NCBI GenBank assembly: GCA_902798365.1
Contig: CADBWP010000020.1
Span: 16,169 to 80,168 of the forward strand
Source of the DNA: an uncultured Ruminococcus sp.
GTDB taxonomy: Bacteria; Bacillota; Clostridia; Oscillospirales; Acutalibacteraceae
Reading direction: 5' to 3'
Length of the DNA stretch: 64,000 bases
Below, in pieces: positions 2,744 through 54,223 of this stretch (the stretch's first letter is position 1; the number at the start of each line of letters is the position of its first letter). Both the position numbers and the translations under genes were made by a program. Under the pieces are notes generated by a model. The model was not told the DNA's origin. It ran no database searches and saw only the letters and a list, made by a program, of their open reading frames with translations.

Positions 2744-4081
2744 ATGAGCGAAGAAAAATTTACAGATGCCTTGAGCGGTATGCGAAAAACGCCCAAGGCA
2801 GAGCCTGCAAATCAGGAAATGAAGCGGAATGCCCGTAACCCGTATTTTCGGGAGCAGCTGACAAAAGAAAAACGTAAAAAAATCAAAGAATACAAAAAGG
2901 AACGTAAAATGCAGATAGAGGAAGCAAAAAAGAAGCTGCGCGAGAAGGTAATCGGCTCAAAAACCGCCGAAGCAGCGCCCGAAGCGGCGCCCGAAGCCGC
3001 CGAAGAAAACACCGGGTCTGCGGCAGAGGCAGCTGTCGCCGAGGGCTCCTTGGCAAGCCGGAACGAGACCGCGCCGAAGGCGGAGGTTCCGGCAAAAGAG
3101 GAGGAAGCGGACGACGATCTGAGCGCGCACGCAAAGCAGCTGTTCAAAAGATTCGCGGCATTTGTTAAAAACCGCAGAATAAAACACAAGGAGAAAAAGG
3201 CGCGCAAAAAAGAGCTGAAAAAACGGAAAAAGCCGCGCGGCAGGTTCATCACTCCGCTAATTATTTTAGGCATACTGCTCGGCTGCGTGGGCGGCTGTCT
3301 GTGGAACATAGACTACTGCAAAAAGAACTTTGACATAAACTTCTATCACGTTGAGTCGGTTCGCGTTTCCGCAGAGATACGCGTGGTGGTTATTTCCGAC
3401 GTTCATCTCAGCGAGTACGGCAAAAACAACGACGACCTTGTAGAGGCGATCGAGGCGCTGCACCCCGACCTTATCATCTCGGCAGGCGACCTTGTAACCT
3501 ACGGCGAAAAGAACTATGACAGCATGCTTAGCCTGTGCGAGCGCCTTGCCGGCATCGCTCCGTTTTTCGGCATAATGGGCAACCACGAGGACGAAAAGGT
3601 TTATTTGGAGCACGACGAGGAGCTCAGGGAAAAATTCAAGGCGACAGGCATGGTGACCCTTGTAAACAAATGCGTTGATGTCCGAATAAAGAATAATAAC
3701 ATTGAGCTTGTCGGAGTATCCGGCGGTATAGACGAATACGACCAATACGGCGGCAAAGATACCATGGACAACCTTGACGCTTCAAGCATAGCCTACCGCA
3801 TATGCTGTGCCCACGTGCCCACGCTGTTTACGGAAAGGCTCGAGAGCTACCGCTTTGACCTGGGCATTGCGGGTCATACCCACGGCGGAATTATAAGGCT
3901 GCCCGTGGTGGGCGGACTTTACAGCGCCGAGGAGGGCTTTTTCCCCAAATTTGACGGCGGACTTTATGAGCTGAAAAACGGCGCTACGCTGTTTGTAAGC
4001 AAGGGTCTCGGAAACTCGGGCAAGGTTCCGCGAATGTTCAACACACCGGAGCTGGCGGTAATAGATATAAAATGGTACTGA
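2744..4081 (+). CDS. Membrane-anchored metallophosphoesterase (YkuE-like) with long charged N-terminus
   Basis: About 445 residues. Residues 1-170 are a lysine/alanine/glutamate-rich, probably coiled-coil cytoplasmic region; one membrane segment follows (about 172-192), then an extracellular calcineurin-type phosphoesterase domain. Metal-binding motifs are complete and in order: SDVHLSE (about 218), AGDLVT (about 247), GNHED (about 279) and GHTHGG (about 376). The start is placed at the ATG 2744 because AAAGGTGG lies 9-16 bases upstream; the GTG at 2732 lies inside that ribosome binding site. It sits inside the polysaccharide operon, 60 bases after the flippase gene, so it may process an exported lipid- or phosphate-linked sugar, but the substrate is unknown. 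Confidence 0.85.
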   Translation: MSEEKFTDALSGMRKTPKAEPANQEMKRNARNPYFREQLTKEKRKKIKEYKKERKMQIEEAKKKLREKVIGSKTAEAAPEAAPEAAEENTGSAAEAAVAEGSLASRNETAPKAEVPAKEEEADDDLSAHAKQLFKRFAAFVKNRRIKHKEKKARKKELKKRKKPRGRFITPLIILGILLGCVGGCLWNIDYCKKNFDINFYHVESVRVSAEIRVVVISDVHLSEYGKNNDDLVEAIEALHPDLIISAGDLVTYGEKNYDSMLSLCERLAGIAPFFGIMGNHEDEKVYLEHDEELREKFKATGMVTLVNKCVDVRIKNNNIELVGVSGGIDEYDQYGGKDTMDNLDASSIAYRICCAHVPTLFTERLESYRFDLGIAGHTHGGIIRLPVVGGLYSAEEGFFPKFDGGLYELKNGATLFVSKGLGNSGKVPRMFNTPELAVIDIKWY

Positions 4082-4092
4082 GGTAACATGAT

Positions 4093-5406
4093 ATGACGGA
4101 AAAAATAATGCAGGCGCTAAAGCAGTCGGCATCAAAGTTTTTCAGGCACAGATTCAAGATACTCTCGCTTGCGCTTGCGCTTCTTATCGGTCTGTGCGTG
4201 CTCAATTACTACACAAATTCCACATTTTCCTCGGCGGGCATGTCGCTCAACTACTCCGAGGCGTCGGAGGGACTCAACCCAAACTCCACCCGCTTCAATA
4301 TTTCGGAGCTTGTAAGCGAAAACGTTATGTCGCGCGTCGTAGAGGCGGCGGGCATAAGCAACGACGTCACATGGGATGAGCTTGCCGATTGTGTATCGGT
4401 AAAATATGTCGATAAGGGAAGCAGCAGCAACGGCTACATCAGCACGTCATATAAGATCTCTTACAATCAGAAGCGCCTGAAAAACAAGGCGGCGCACATG
4501 CCCGGCGCAGACGACATGATAAAGCTTATATGCAGCACCTACAAAAGCTACTTTCTTGAAAACTACGGCGACAACAAGTCGGTGCTCAACTACACTCCGC
4601 TTATAGGCACCGACGGCGAGCCGTACATCTCCCTGAGCTCGCTCGAGGTAAAGCTAAACCAGATAGACCGCTACATCCGCATGAGGATGAAGGAGAACAA
4701 AAGCTACACCGACGACGAGACCGGGCTCAGCTTCAACTCGCTTTTGAAGGATGTTGAAAACCTCAACAACTACGACGTTGAAAACATCTATGCATACATT
4801 CTTGAAACGGGAGTTTCAAAGGACAGGGACGAGCTTGTTTCGCTTGAAACCTACAAAAACCGCATAGAGACCCTGTCCTATGACCGCTATATGGCGTATT
4901 ACGACGCCGACAACAACGGTATAAAGCTGTATGACGAGGCGATGAGCGCGATTGTTATGATCCCCTCGGTAGATACGATGAACGAATACTACATGTCGCG
5001 CACCAAGACCGCGACCGACACGATGGCGGCAAACGCCGACTCCGAGCTTGAGGAGGCTATGTCGTACAAGAAGTCAATCACCGACACCGACTATCTTATC
5101 TCGCAGATCAAGGCAGGGTCAAGCGATCCCGATAAAAGCCTAAAGACCGCCGCCGAGATGATAGTGGCGCTCAACGACGACGTCAACCGAACCGCGGAAC
5201 AGCTGAAGCTGCTTGATGTGTCATACATAAAGCACAAAACGCAGAATTATCTTGTATTCAGCTACTCCGAAAAATCGTTTATGCAAAGGATAGACATTAA
5301 GGAATCGCTGATAAAGGTATTTTTGGCGATGCTCGCGTTATTCGTGCTGCTGTTTATCCTTTTGCTGACAAGAAACAGAAAGAAGAAGAAAAATGCAAAA
5401 ATTTGA
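4093..5406 (+). CDS. Wzz/CpsC-like polysaccharide chain-length protein
   Basis: 437 residues with one membrane segment near the N-terminus (about 20-40), a long extracytoplasmic and partly coiled-coil region, and a second membrane segment near the C-terminus (about 410-430) followed by a basic tail. This is the two-helix layout of Wzz/CpsC polysaccharide co-polymerases, which set chain length. Just after the first helix it has EGLNPNSTRFNISEL, closely paralleled by EGMNPDGTELDVNEI in the next gene, so the two are paralogues. The ribosome binding site (GAGGTAA) overlaps the upstream stop codon, and its own end overlaps the next start by 14 bases. No tyrosine kinase partner (CpsD) is visible in the window. 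Confidence 0.75.
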   Translation: MTEKIMQALKQSASKFFRHRFKILSLALALLIGLCVLNYYTNSTFSSAGMSLNYSEASEGLNPNSTRFNISELVSENVMSRVVEAAGISNDVTWDELADCVSVKYVDKGSSSNGYISTSYKISYNQKRLKNKAAHMPGADDMIKLICSTYKSYFLENYGDNKSVLNYTPLIGTDGEPYISLSSLEVKLNQIDRYIRMRMKENKSYTDDETGLSFNSLLKDVENLNNYDVENIYAYILETGVSKDRDELVSLETYKNRIETLSYDRYMAYYDADNNGIKLYDEAMSAIVMIPSVDTMNEYYMSRTKTATDTMAANADSELEEAMSYKKSITDTDYLISQIKAGSSDPDKSLKTAAEMIVALNDDVNRTAEQLKLLDVSYIKHKTQNYLVFSYSEKSFMQRIDIKESLIKVFLAMLALFVLLFILLLTRNRKKKKNAKI

Positions 5407-7183
5407 CTTACTTCGGTATTTTAAGCGGTTCGGGCTGCTTGTGCTCGCCGTAACCATAGTGGGCACGGCACTGGTTTATGTTTATTGCAGCCGCAATCAA
5501 AACTACACCGCCAAGGCGACAATCCGCTATACAAACGAAAATATAAACGAGGGAATGAACCCCGACGGAACCGAGCTTGACGTTAACGAGATCTATTCAT
5601 CCACCGTTATCGCCCAGGCAATGGATTCGCTCGGCATCGACGAGTCCATGAACATAATCCGCTCCAGCTGCTATGTCAACGGGATCATCCCCGAGGAAGA
5701 AAAGATAAAGCAGGAGGCGCTGCTCGACAAGGGCGAAGAGGTAGTATATACGCCCGACATGTACGAGGTGGGGCTTACCGTGGGCGGCAGCAAGGGCAGC
5801 TCCTATGCCAGCAATGTGCTCGACGCCATTTTGCAGAGCTACTTTACCGTCTATACCGAAAAGCACGTTGAAGAGCAGCTCGAGATCAACCCGTCCTACA
5901 ATCTGCTTCAAAAGGGCTACGATTTTTACGAGGCTATCTGGATTCTCGAAAACGACACAAACGAGATGTACAATCATCTCAAAAAGAAAAAGGACAAATA
6001 CCCCGACTACCGTTCGTCGGTGACGGGCTATTCCTACGCCGACCTGTGCGACATCTACAAGGAGTTCATCGACTATGTGATTCCCTCGCTTTACGCCAAG
6101 GTCATCGACGGTCCCCAGGTTATCGACGGCGACGTGCTCAGAAAATCGCTTACGAATCAGATAAAGGAAATGAACCGAACGGAAAAAACAAATTCCGACC
6201 GGCGCGACTATCTGTACAAGATCATCGTCAACTACTCCGACAAAAACAAGGACATGCTCGAGTACCACTACAGCAAGGACGGCAAGGGCACCGAGACCGA
6301 CTACATCTTAAAGCAGGTTGAGGAAAACGACCACCACGCCGACGTTGAGATAGAGTACGACAAGCTGATAAACGAGTATGTCGATCTTGACAAAAGCATA
6401 AGAAAAAGCGTTATCGACCGCAAATACAAGGAGTATCTGCTGTCGGTATTCGGCGAGATCGGTTCCGGCAGCAGCGGAACCGAGGCTCAGCACGAGGAGC
6501 TTTCCGCACTTATCAACAATTATGAAAAAAAGCTGTACGAGTACTACGACATAGTCAGCGAGACCAGCCGAGAGTTCAACAACGTGCTCAGCGCCGAGTA
6601 CCTTAAAATGTACAACTCAATAACGGTAAAGGCGTCTATCAACACAAACATGTACCTTGCCATAGGCTTTGTATTCTTCCTTGTGGCAGGCATAGTGCTT
6701 GCGATAGTATTCGGCAGAGCGGGCGACTTTGCAAAGTTTATACTCTACACCGACAAAAAGACGGGTCTGGCAAACCGCGAGCAGATCGACATTTTTATCG
6801 ACGAGATGTCCAAGGATATTCTGCCCGACAACTACGCCTGTATCTATGTGCTGTATTCGTCGCTGTTCGACCACACCCAAAAATACGGCTACAAGGTTGC
6901 CGATAAGATCCTCAAGGACTTTGCGGGTCTTGTAAACGCAATGGGCGACGAAAACAGCTTTGTGGGCTACAACGGCGCAGGCAGGTTCGTTATCTTCACA
7001 CCGCAATGCAATGCAAAGCGCGCCGACACCATCATAGATGTGTTTGACACCCAGATTCAGGAGTACAACAACATCAACCCCGACTACAAAATGGAATACA
7101 AGGCGGTTTATGCCATCACCACCGACGAGGGCAACTATGAGATTCGCGGAATCCTAAGGGCTGCCATGAAGAAGATCGGATAA
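5393..7183 (+). CDS. Wzz-like chain-length protein fused to a degenerate GGDEF domain
   Basis: 596 residues. Residues 1-430 repeat the plan of the upstream paralogue: membrane helix at about 15-35, extracytoplasmic coiled region, second helix at about 418-442. A cytoplasmic domain follows with the hallmarks of GGDEF diguanylate cyclases: the entry motif DKKTGLANRE (about 455), the helix pattern HTQKYGYKVADKILKDFA, and the active-site position. There GGDEF is replaced by GAGRF (YNGAGRF at about 526-532), and no RxxD inhibitory site precedes it, so catalysis is unlikely. It may sense a nucleotide or act as a protein-binding module that couples cytoplasmic signalling to polysaccharide length. 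An HD-GYP gene ends the same operon. The fusion is seen in the sequence; the role is inference. Confidence 0.8.
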   Translation: MQKFDLLRYFKRFGLLVLAVTIVGTALVYVYCSRNQNYTAKATIRYTNENINEGMNPDGTELDVNEIYSSTVIAQAMDSLGIDESMNIIRSSCYVNGIIPEEEKIKQEALLDKGEEVVYTPDMYEVGLTVGGSKGSSYASNVLDAILQSYFTVYTEKHVEEQLEINPSYNLLQKGYDFYEAIWILENDTNEMYNHLKKKKDKYPDYRSSVTGYSYADLCDIYKEFIDYVIPSLYAKVIDGPQVIDGDVLRKSLTNQIKEMNRTEKTNSDRRDYLYKIIVNYSDKNKDMLEYHYSKDGKGTETDYILKQVEENDHHADVEIEYDKLINEYVDLDKSIRKSVIDRKYKEYLLSVFGEIGSGSSGTEAQHEELSALINNYEKKLYEYYDIVSETSREFNNVLSAEYLKMYNSITVKASINTNMYLAIGFVFFLVAGIVLAIVFGRAGDFAKFILYTDKKTGLANREQIDIFIDEMSKDILPDNYACIYVLYSSLFDHTQKYGYKVADKILKDFAGLVNAMGDENSFVGYNGAGRFVIFTPQCNAKRADTIIDVFDTQIQEYNNINPDYKMEYKAVYAITTDEGNYEIRGILRAAMKKIG

Positions 7184-13729: not shown

Positions 13730-13822
13730 GGAGGATTACTCAAGTGGTGAAGAGGCTCCCCTGCTAAGGGAGTAGGTCGTCTAAAACACGGCGCGAGGGT
13801 TCAAATCCCTTGTCCTCCGCCA
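13730..13822 (+). tRNA. tRNA-Ser (anticodon GCT)
   Basis: Acceptor GGAGGAT/GTCCTCC, anticodon stem CTCCC/GGGAG with loop CTGCTAA (anticodon GCT), long variable arm, T arm with TTCAAAT and encoded CCA. It lies 31 bases after tRNA-Ser(TGA), so they are probably co-transcribed. Its 3' end and terminator are duplicated 217 bases downstream. Confidence 0.97.
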
Positions 13823-13871
13823 AAAAAGTCCGGCTCGGTTTTGAGTCGGACTTTTTTTCGGGTTTCCGATA
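13809..13871 (+). repeat. 63-bp direct repeat, copy 1 (tRNA 3' end plus terminator)
   Basis: The last 10 bases of tRNA-Ser(GCT) before the discriminator base, the GCCA end, the terminator and 13 further bases are identical to 14026-14088. The two copies bracket the tRNA-linked element and are offset by 217 bases. Confidence 0.95.
13823..13858 (+). terminator. Terminator of the tRNA-Ser pair (first copy)
   Basis: AGTCCGgCTC pairs with GAGtCGGACT and is followed by seven T. It begins right after the CCA end and is repeated identically at 14040-14075. Confidence 0.9.
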
Positions 13872-14025
13872 CTTTCCCGAGGACAAGGGATTTGAAGGCG
13901 ACCGTGCCCGCCGCAGGCGGGTAAAAACGTTCCGGGGGAACGTTATTAGGGAGAGCGTTATACAATGCTCGCGCACAAAACACGCCGCATCAGGCGAAGG
14001 TGAAGCTTTCGTAAAAACTAACGTA
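13872..14025 (+). repeat. tRNA-linked non-coding repeat element, copy A
   Basis: A 154-bp segment between the two 63-bp direct repeats. Its left end (13880-13896) carries GAGGACAAGGGATTTGAA, an inverted copy of the 3' acceptor and T arm of the adjacent tRNA-Ser(GCT). A core follows (13894-13961) that matches copy B on the other strand at 53998-54065 with only two mismatches. It holds two perfect hairpins: CCCGCC-GCA-GGCGGG (13907-13921) and AACGTTCC-GGG-GGAACGTT (13926-13944). A second shared block ACGCCGCATCA lies at 13982, and the element ends ACGTA at the junction with the tRNA 3'-end copy. The short reading frames crossing it are not credible genes. Confidence 0.85.
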
Positions 14026-14088
14026 CTTGTCCTCCGCCAAAAAAGTCCGGCTCGGTTTTGAGTCGGACTTTTTTTCGGGTTTCCGATA
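14026..14088 (+). repeat. 63-bp direct repeat, copy 2 (orphan tRNA-Ser 3' end plus terminator)
   Basis: Identical to 13809-13871. It holds a tRNA 3' end with CCA and a terminator (hairpin 14040-14075) but no tRNA body, so it is an orphan duplicate. Confidence 0.95.
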
Positions 14089-14163
14089 TTTTTTCAGCCT
14101 GATTTTAAAACCGCTTTTTCAAGGGATTTGACATAGTATTACGAATTTATATTTTACAGGATC

Positions 14164-53851: not shown

Positions 53852-53884
53852 TTTAGAGAATCAGATAATAGAGGATAGCGGATT
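53852..53884. repeat. AGAGATTAGAG-family short repeat (degenerate)
   Basis: TTAGAGAATCAGATAATAGAGGATAGCGG resembles the purine-rich repeats at 7190, 26815 and 60484 but is more decayed. Confidence 0.35.
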
Positions 53885-53933
53885 ATAAAACAAAAAAGCG
53901 CCACAGGGCGCTCTTTCTTTGGCGGAGAGAAGG
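53885..53933 (-). repeat. 49-bp direct repeat, distal copy (orphan tRNA-Ser 3' end plus terminator)
   Basis: Identical to 54096-54144 with an offset of 211 bases. On the minus strand it reads CCTTCTCTCCGCCA followed by the terminator hairpin AGCGCC/GGCGCT with TTTTTTG, without a tRNA body. Confidence 0.93.
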
Positions 53934-54095
53934 TACGTCCTATTTATTATAAAGCTATCTGCTCGTTTGATGCGGCGTGTGCATAGCTAAAGCATGAATA
54001 ACTCTCTCCCTAAAAACGTTCCCCCGGAACGTTTTTACCCGCCTGCGGCGGGCACGGTCGCCTTCGAATCCCCTCTGTTCTCTTTTGGGTTTATC
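53934..54095 (-). repeat. tRNA-linked non-coding repeat element, copy B
   Basis: A 162-bp segment between the 49-bp direct repeats, on the same strand as tRNA-Ser(GGA). Read on the minus strand, it has an inverted piece of that tRNA (AGGGGATTCGAA) at its left, the shared core (54065-53998, two mismatches to copy A), the shared block ACGCCGCATCA (53978-53968), and it ends ACGTA at the junction with the orphan tRNA 3' end. The organisation is the same as in copy A, 40 kb away, although the tRNA, its terminator and the inverted piece are specific to this locus. Confidence 0.85.
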
Positions 54096-54144
54096 ATAAA
54101 ACAAAAAAGCGCCACAGGGCGCTCTTTCTTTGGCGGAGAGAAGG
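54096..54144 (-). repeat. 49-bp direct repeat, proximal copy (genuine tRNA-Ser(GGA) 3' end plus terminator)
   Basis: Covers the last bases of tRNA-Ser(GGA), its CCA end and the terminator hairpin (54102-54128). It is identical to 53885-53933. Confidence 0.93.
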
Positions 54145-54223
54145 GGATTCGAACCCCTGGTACGGTGATTACCGTACACATGATTTCCAATCATGCTCCT
54201 TCGGCCAGCTCGGACATCTCTCC
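54131..54223 (-). tRNA. tRNA-Ser (anticodon GGA)
   Basis: Acceptor GGAGAGA/TCTCTCC, anticodon stem CATGA/TCATG around TTGGAAA (anticodon GGA), long variable arm, T arm GGGTTCGAATCCC and encoded CCA. Confidence 0.97.

Follow-up and report, generated by a model that had tools for sequence, protein, structure and literature searches.

Gene-free units with a folded core behind tRNA genes in Ruminococcus and relatives: possible integrative cassettes at gene ends

Prophages, ICEs and IMEs that target tRNA genes insert at gene ends and restore the 3' end of the tRNA gene concerned, and integrons carry the R box GTTRRRY / RYYYAAC at the recombination point. In IS608, a guide located close to the foot of the hairpin base-pairs with the sequence that adjoins the insertion point, while the bridge RNA of IS110 elements is reportedly non-coding and structured, with target-complementary segments. 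For casposons, passages of one study describe a 14-15-bp duplication with the 3' end of a tRNA gene as target, and recognition of a TCAAATC motif 8 bp upstream of that duplication (PMC6614799); we infer that this motif is T-loop sequence. More generally, tRNA genes are named as insertion hotspots in a passage of PMC10589994.

The DNA analysed here is a window of 64,000 nt from an uncultured Ruminococcus sp. (assembly GCA_902798365.1, contig CADBWP010000020.1, positions 16,169-80,168 of the forward strand), in which two tRNA-Ser genes are each followed by a short repeated structure (Table 1). An earlier note on this window had claimed that both loci share a core with two mismatches in about 67 bases behind different tRNA-Ser genes, and the alignment bears this out (97% identity over 67 bases, 13894-13960 (+) versus 53999-54065 (-), two mismatches). 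The orphan copy of the tRNA end begins, as claimed, at the same tRNA position in both loci, since position 63 corresponds to 54144 in the tRNA-Ser(GGA) gene and 53933 in its orphan, and to 13809 and 14026 at the sister locus. The locus-specific duplication behind tRNA-Ser(GGA) is present but spans 52 nt (53882-53933 and 54093-54144, 98% identical) instead of the 49 nt given, and the inverted T-arm fragment (about 54063-54082) likewise exists but sits on the tRNA side, between terminator and core, not on the far side. The inverted copy of the sister locus has no mismatch over 18 nt (13800-13817 versus 13879-13896), and the second repeat there looks like the stub of a second, decayed unit because a remnant inverted copy follows it; behind tRNA-Ser(GGA), no remnant inverted copy was found after the second repeat. 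Four core copies occur in the same genome at E <= 1.3e-4, and the tRNA gene ahead of each is a different one (Ser-GCT, Ser-GGA, Arg-CCG and Met-CAT); the Met-CAT copy is truncated, and the two terminators of the Arg-CCG copy differ. These four copies, together with the same plan in dozens of genomes, exclude a chance origin.

Table 1. Coordinates of the two units in the window and of their target genes
Feature	Positions	Strand	Remarks
tRNA-Ser(GGA), target gene	54131-54223	-	ARAGORN, Rfam RF00005; last 14 nt (positions 63-76) = 54131-54144
Proximal terminator hairpin, between tRNA and inverted copy	54103-54128	-	
Inverted (antisense) copy of tRNA positions 54-73	54063-54082	-	exact for 54-65, diverged beyond
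Conserved structured core GAAGGCGA...GAGAGAG	54002-54065	-	P0, P1 (54038-54052), P2 (54012-54036); covariation, model R1
Variable 3' part of core	53934-54001	-	ends ..GGACGTA at the join
Orphan direct copy of tRNA-Ser(GGA) positions 63-76	53920-53933	-	
Distal terminator, same sequence as proximal	53892-53917	-	inside the 52-nt direct repeat
tRNA-Ser(GCT), target of sister unit	13730-13822	+	positions 63-76 = 13809-13822
Terminator hairpin of sister unit	13822-13857	+	
Inverted copy of tRNA-Ser(GCT) positions 54-71	13879-13896	+	exact
Sister-unit core	13894-14025	+	P1 13907-13921, P2 about 13923-13947
Orphan direct copy of tRNA-Ser(GCT) positions 63-76	14026-14039	+	
Remnant of second inverted copy (CAAGGGATTTGA)	14120-14131	+	stub of second tandem unit

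The two loci belong to a much larger family of non-coding units that follow tRNA genes. With R1, a covariance model of the core, matches at E <= 0.01 occur in 95 of 100 genomes of the same genus (up to 25 per genome, weak ones included) and in 62 of 394 genomes (35 of 168 genera) across the order, where many are weak and some are limited to the P2 palindrome. Most of the genomes are drafts or MAGs, and the core behind tRNA-Ser(GGA), which R1 matches in its own genome, is one of the 62 sequences used to build the model. A pattern search allowing up to two mismatches matched 93 of the 100 same-genus genomes, a count that means little because the reversed control pattern also matched most of them. 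The matches pursued had few mismatches or formed close pairs, and the regions inspected around 40 of them contain units behind many tRNA species, often in tandem arrays. Scanning GTDB contigs with the pattern gave at least 120 stretches, and the titles among the matches listed were Ruminococcus, Oscillospiraceae, Clostridia and the like, or 'bacterium'. Taking 80 of the 120 named contigs together with 44 other sources gave 147 distinct hits; 30 of them lack the second core box and were set aside, and the other 117 elements have both boxes. Same-strand tRNAs predicted by ARAGORN, with 27 isoacceptor labels, lie 38-81 nt ahead of 55 of the 117 elements, and the others are found in arrays, at contig ends or away from such a tRNA. 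Such a tRNA is absent ahead of 24 elements with long upstream stretches: judged by eye, 17 of these come after the 3' part of a tRNA, after a tmRNA end or after another unit, and the remaining seven after none of these. Copies are bound to tRNA genes on this evidence, a point that the earlier note had proposed to check, with those seven of the 24 as exceptions.

Targets extend beyond tRNA genes. The ends of tmRNA genes are also used, and the system is not limited to tRNA-like genes, since in L276 two units follow the 3' end of rpsI, which encodes ribosomal protein S9, and include the end of this gene as inverted and as direct copies. The same plan was seen by eye at several distant loci (among them tRNA-Pro in L293, tRNA-Ser twice in L269 and tRNA-Tyr in L281), and a motif-free test of the 12 tRNAs of 28 such loci found both copies at three, one of them from the same genus, with none in the reversed control. 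Another genus may hold cargo cassettes: in L021, a 253-aa methyltransferase gene (5076-5837 (+)) is flanked by two related hairpin sites at tRNA-Tyr, the second of which is followed by a GNAT acetyltransferase gene (3959-4405 (-)). One query each of viral contigs (exact pattern), phages and plasmids gave no match, and a phage, viral or plasmid origin was accordingly rejected. A search of the open-access literature returned nothing on these units.

These discrete units are built in the following order: a terminator, an antisense copy (I) of positions 54-73 of the neighbouring tRNA, a folded core, and a direct copy of positions 63-76. Counts of this anatomy draw on all 120 named contigs and refer to 87 units adjoining an intact tRNA (three of 90 rows were removed because the tRNA did not end as expected), 66 of which have a findable orphan copy; among the other 21, three have less than 90 nt of contig behind the core start and the rest are truncated, diverged or near a contig end. 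The join at 62|63 is sharp, with the orphan matching its tRNA at 0.94-1.0 over positions 63-76 and at 0.30 at position 62 (66 units); positions 68-76 anchored the search, and 63-67 (0.94-0.98) are the independent part. The antisense copy is matched to its own locus, with positions 54-56 fixed by the row selection and pairing with other tRNAs as the control: over the 87 units it matches its own tRNA at 0.99 at position 57 (control 0.51), 0.97 at 59 (0.31), 0.92 at 62 (0.76), 0.91 at 63 (0.45) and 0.84 at 64 (0.23), falls to 0.57-0.68 at 69-73 (0.26-0.53) and reaches the control level at 74-76. Two tmRNA genes with an unusual TCC T-loop (L327 and L342) are accompanied by an antisense copy with the matching GGA (by eye). 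The single specific mechanism suspected in the earlier note is supported by this constant breakpoint, by both unit ends tracking the neighbouring tRNA and by the binding of copies to tRNA genes. Its derivation of the long duplication from the target stands for the 14-nt tRNA end and, as a rule, not for the terminator. When the 45 nt that follow each of the two CCA ends were compared in 61 units, they proved alike in 23 (>0.8), clearly different in 25 (<0.6) and intermediate in 13, a distribution which indicates that the terminator usually travels with the unit and that only 14 nt are regularly duplicated; this is a family-level pattern, both terminators at the tRNA-Ser(GGA) locus being alike.

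The stretch from the CCA to the antisense copy folds below -10 kcal/mol in 82 of 87 units, and the core measures 144-150 nt in 44 of 66 units and more than 153 nt in six. Terminal inverted repeats were not found (end identity 0.231 versus 0.244 shuffled, 61 units), and the 3' part of the core was rejected as a further copy of the tRNA body (direct 5.50 versus 5.54, reverse complement 5.63 versus 5.36; 78 elements). Base counts over the ten nucleotides before the join (consensus ..AAAACATA|) show AAC with no RYYY ahead of it (by eye, at the join only). At L057 235 and L079 12154, tRNA-Arg-like sequence is fused straight to the antisense copy where the latter ends, which looks like a loss of the T-terminator-I hairpin through deletion between GGG repeats.

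The covariation in the hairpins that the earlier note had proposed looking for was found. In 62 sequences and four helices (P0, P1 outer, P1 inner and P2), 95.5% of cells are paired versus 73.4% after shuffling, changes on both sides occur in 20 of 21 pairs (14.0 shuffled), and the covariation score is 0.590 versus 0.212 shuffled and at most 0.081 for slid versions, with the test somewhat favouring the structure because it was derived from the same related sequences. Further pair types (45 versus 43.4 shuffled, 139 of 500) show no excess over the shuffles. The tRNA-sense strand seems to be the folding strand, because P0 has 13 T.G and no C.A among 107 distinct cores and, at pair 13/51 of P1, 35 of the 62 sequences have G.T and 26 have G-C; this strand test reads alike for single-stranded DNA and RNA. 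P2 has no strand preference (T.G/G.T 6, C.A/A.C 10 of 1177 cells), and its best-pairing form always has a three-base loop (ties being assigned to three), nearly always NGN, with hardly any G.T. It is also terminator-like, with an A-run, a GC stem and a T-run, and its resemblance to a palindrome or terminator slightly favours folded DNA. A terminal stem is additionally formed by the antisense copy and the orphan, and the internal-loop columns 34/58 and 35/59 show non-canonical co-variation.

Tandem arrays occur behind several targets, with two units in L059, L069 and L070 and three behind tRNA-Pro in both L061 and L020 (the middle unit of L020 having a different core), at a spacing of mostly 190-240 bp and of 306 bp in L070. 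The tmRNA gene, which scores above its cut-off in 87 of the 100 genus genomes, offers a view of one target across genomes. At 66 loci with at least 200 nt downstream, out of 70 read, a motif-free test found the antisense copy (at most two mismatches of 13) in eight, a near-exact match to the orphan end in nine and both copies in six, with none in the reversed controls; L327 and L342 fall below its threshold. The orphan match of L346 is probably due to chance, because no antisense copy accompanies it, and this tmRNA gene is empty, its terminator following directly after the CCA. In another genome (L329) the target is filled: the unit lies between the CCA and a 14-nt orphan, followed by a terminator homologous to that of L346, so that the homologue of the native terminator is the distal one and a different terminator is proximal. 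This comparison of an empty with a filled orthologous target shows insertion. In L295, L301, L312, L315, L336 and others, a coding-looking stretch behind ssrA crosses the tmRNA end (..YFFSGGFAV.. / ..YFGGFAVTV..) and ends about 60 nt later; such a stretch is seen at many of the 70 loci, some of which have a different longest open frame.

A tree of 60 cores (orphan within 200 nt, core of 110-160 nt, leaving out 27 of 87 units) contains 36 changes of the tRNA amino-acid label, where the minimum is 12, the shuffled mean is 43.7 and none of 200 shuffles was as low. Most of the tree is weakly supported (stars on 10 of 57 inner branches), but the starred branches alone force five label changes each for Ser, Pro and Leu. 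These label changes indicate that core lineages have moved between tRNA species and that the copies followed. Strictly target-specific lineages find no support in the tree, although its labels cluster above chance and support is weak. Between cores whose tRNAs carry different amino acids, the highest identity is 85%, and jumping between tRNA types is not seen in action, as near-identical cores at different tRNA species are absent.

No named family fits the units. By function, they resemble an integron cassette anchored on a tRNA gene: like cassettes and attC sites, they form short tandem units behind an anchor (L020, L059, L061, L069, L070) and contain an inverted/direct pair around hairpins, a folded single strand is inferred, and a cargo gene is possible (L021). 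The anchor, however, is the end of a tRNA, tmRNA or rpsI gene, the paired ends are copies of the target, and the same-genus units inspected carry no gene; since the full box was not seen at the join and no IntI is demonstrated, the units are not classed with integrons. The strand-specific hairpins with a guide near the foot recall IS200/IS605 and REP/RAYT elements, from which the units differ in a complementarity of about 9-20 nt instead of 4 and in the tRNA target; Y1 (HUH) transposase was found in 57 of the 100 genus genomes and not in 43, including G000, G074 (listed as 100% complete), G239 and G241. Gene-end targets and a restored tRNA 3' end are shared with tRNA-targeted prophages, ICEs and IMEs, although the units have no integrase or other genes and do have a covarying core, an antisense target copy and many targets per core family. 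A structured non-coding part with target-complementary segments is shared with IS110 bridge-RNA elements, whereas the units have one continuous antisense segment and a 14-nt duplication, and the IS110 (DEDD) recombinase occurs in one of 12 carriers. Casposons have a duplication of similar length at the tRNA end (14-15 bp, versus 14 nt at positions 63-76 here), as passages of PMC6614799 put it, but there 8 bp separate the recognised motif from the duplication, versus one nucleotide between the like sequence and the duplication here; moreover, the units lack terminal inverted repeats and genes, and Cas1 (PF01867) was not found in seven carriers with intact units (G000, G074, G233, G239, G241, G275, G289). 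It is present in 26 of the 100 genus genomes, including carriers such as G211 and G244. Reverse transcriptase occurs in six of 12 carriers, and Cas1, Y1, IS110 and reverse transcriptase were each rejected as the enzyme for being missing from many carriers, the tested genomes being mostly incomplete. Tyrosine recombinase (PF00589) is the only tested class found in every carrier tested (12 of 12), which proves little because this domain is near universal (14 of 14 control genomes). In the window's own genome, a Xer-like protein falls below the XerC and XerD cut-offs and scores 82.5 bits to TIGR02249 (cut-off 265; two proteins of this genome were scanned for the IntI type).

The reading that we tentatively prefer, as a real possibility that stops short of being probable, is that the units are non-autonomous, gene-free integrative cassettes recombined as a folded strand by a tyrosine-type recombinase, and such cassettes point to an undescribed way of inserting DNA at gene ends. 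The unit would enter between positions 62 and 63 of the tRNA gene, or at a tmRNA or rpsI end, and the target end would be rebuilt with the 14-nt copy of 63-76 and a terminator, so that the target would stay functional and could take further tandem units. The tRNA-sense strand, as single-stranded DNA more likely than as RNA, would fold into a branched structure with the antisense segment at its foot, and a putative site-specific tyrosine-type (Xer/integrase) recombinase, of the host or transient, would join this folded strand to the T-arm of the target, much as an integron integrase links a folded attC to attI. The antisense segment would pair with the target or be recopied from it, and would in this way stay matched to each tRNA. 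In favour of these cassettes are the sharp join with its 14-nt duplication, the antisense copy matched to each locus, the covarying hairpins and their strand preference, the tandem arrays, the empty and filled tmRNA targets, the label changes on the tree, the use of rpsI and the occurrence of tyrosine recombinases in every carrier tested. Several results count against them: no recombinase was linked to the element, further pair types show no excess, P2 lacks a strand preference, near-identical cores at different tRNA species are missing, tree support is mostly weak, viral contigs, phages and plasmids gave no match, L327 and L342 fall short in the motif-free test, and seven of the 24 units with long upstream sequence have no tRNA end. 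If mobile, the units would be among the smallest site-specific elements, devoid of genes and yet found in almost every sampled member of a common gut genus, and a copy able to base-pair with the target seems to encode their target specificity. We consider it unlikely that insertion is also guide-programmed, with the antisense guide of about 20 nt base-pairing across the insertion point, directing the recombinase to 62|63 and being rewritten from the target when a core moves. Mobile units would add a natural, possibly programmable system for insertion at gene ends; otherwise the units could form a large RNA family, so far unrecognised and linked to tRNA genes, and in both cases an overlooked stretch behind tRNA genes becomes testable.

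Such an RNA, a structured small RNA or a retroelement-like one, is a doubtful alternative. Read-through from the tRNA would yield an RNA with a tRNA-derived, CCA-ending stem as the functional or mobile form, its antisense copy would act like an internal guide sequence, and mobility would proceed by reverse splicing or reverse transcription at 62|63. Covarying helices that have G.U on the tRNA-sense strand, the non-canonical co-variation of the internal-loop columns and an antisense segment that spans the join all agree with an RNA, but a terminator stands between tRNA and unit with no promoter-like site found between them in the window, P2 is itself terminator-like, reverse transcriptase is present in only half of the 12 carriers, and the rpsI target needs no tRNA fold. 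Neither an Rfam family over the unit at gathering score nor an Rfam group I or II intron was found in the window and 16 loci, and one unit searched below gathering gave only microRNA-type and similar matches far under their cut-offs.

Alternatively, the units could be attachment-site relics of ordinary tRNA-targeted integrative elements, MITE-like remains in which the inner parts were lost while an attP-like arm region and the duplicated tRNA end were kept, an origin that we also hold to be improbable. Genes for tRNA, tmRNA and rpsI are the typical target set of tyrosine integrases, integrase genes lie near some copies (G216 C13, G241 C156), and the methyltransferase gene between the two tRNA-Tyr sites of L021, with the GNAT gene after it, would suit such an origin. 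A covarying structure and a steady core length are not expected of relics, however, the core occurs at 27 isoacceptor labels, and the tRNA 3' parts upstream of some units begin near the anticodon loop (by eye), where other putative insertions seem to use another point. Very unlikely is a host regulatory or insulating element (terminators T1 and P2) that was duplicated with tRNA ends by slippage and whose antisense copy was matched through quasipalindrome template switching, since slippage leaves the sharp 62|63 join in many genomes and the rpsI copies unexplained, I matches best at 54-63, a long way from the centre of the palindrome, and presence at one locus is patchy (8 of 66 tmRNA loci), even though the stretch from CCA to I folds in nearly all units, the units are tandemly repeated, and T and I lie near each other as inverted repeats, on which template switching can act.

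Individual units are adjoined or interrupted by other sequences. In L074 and L077, units without an upstream tRNA begin right at CC|A beside stretches of multiple repeats that look like what we take to be IS21 ends, and these units were probably moved by rearrangement. Large cargo-bearing elements were considered for interrupted cores and rejected, as the genes that follow look ordinary and chromosomal by translation and the cores are truncated (by eye). In L076, L080, L081 and L089, another short repeat (a GGGGTCCCC...AAAAAGC...GGGG hairpin) is inserted inside several cores, and in L056 a Gut-1 RNA (Rfam RF01706, 1988-2064 (+)) lies directly behind the unit at a tRNA-Ala gene.
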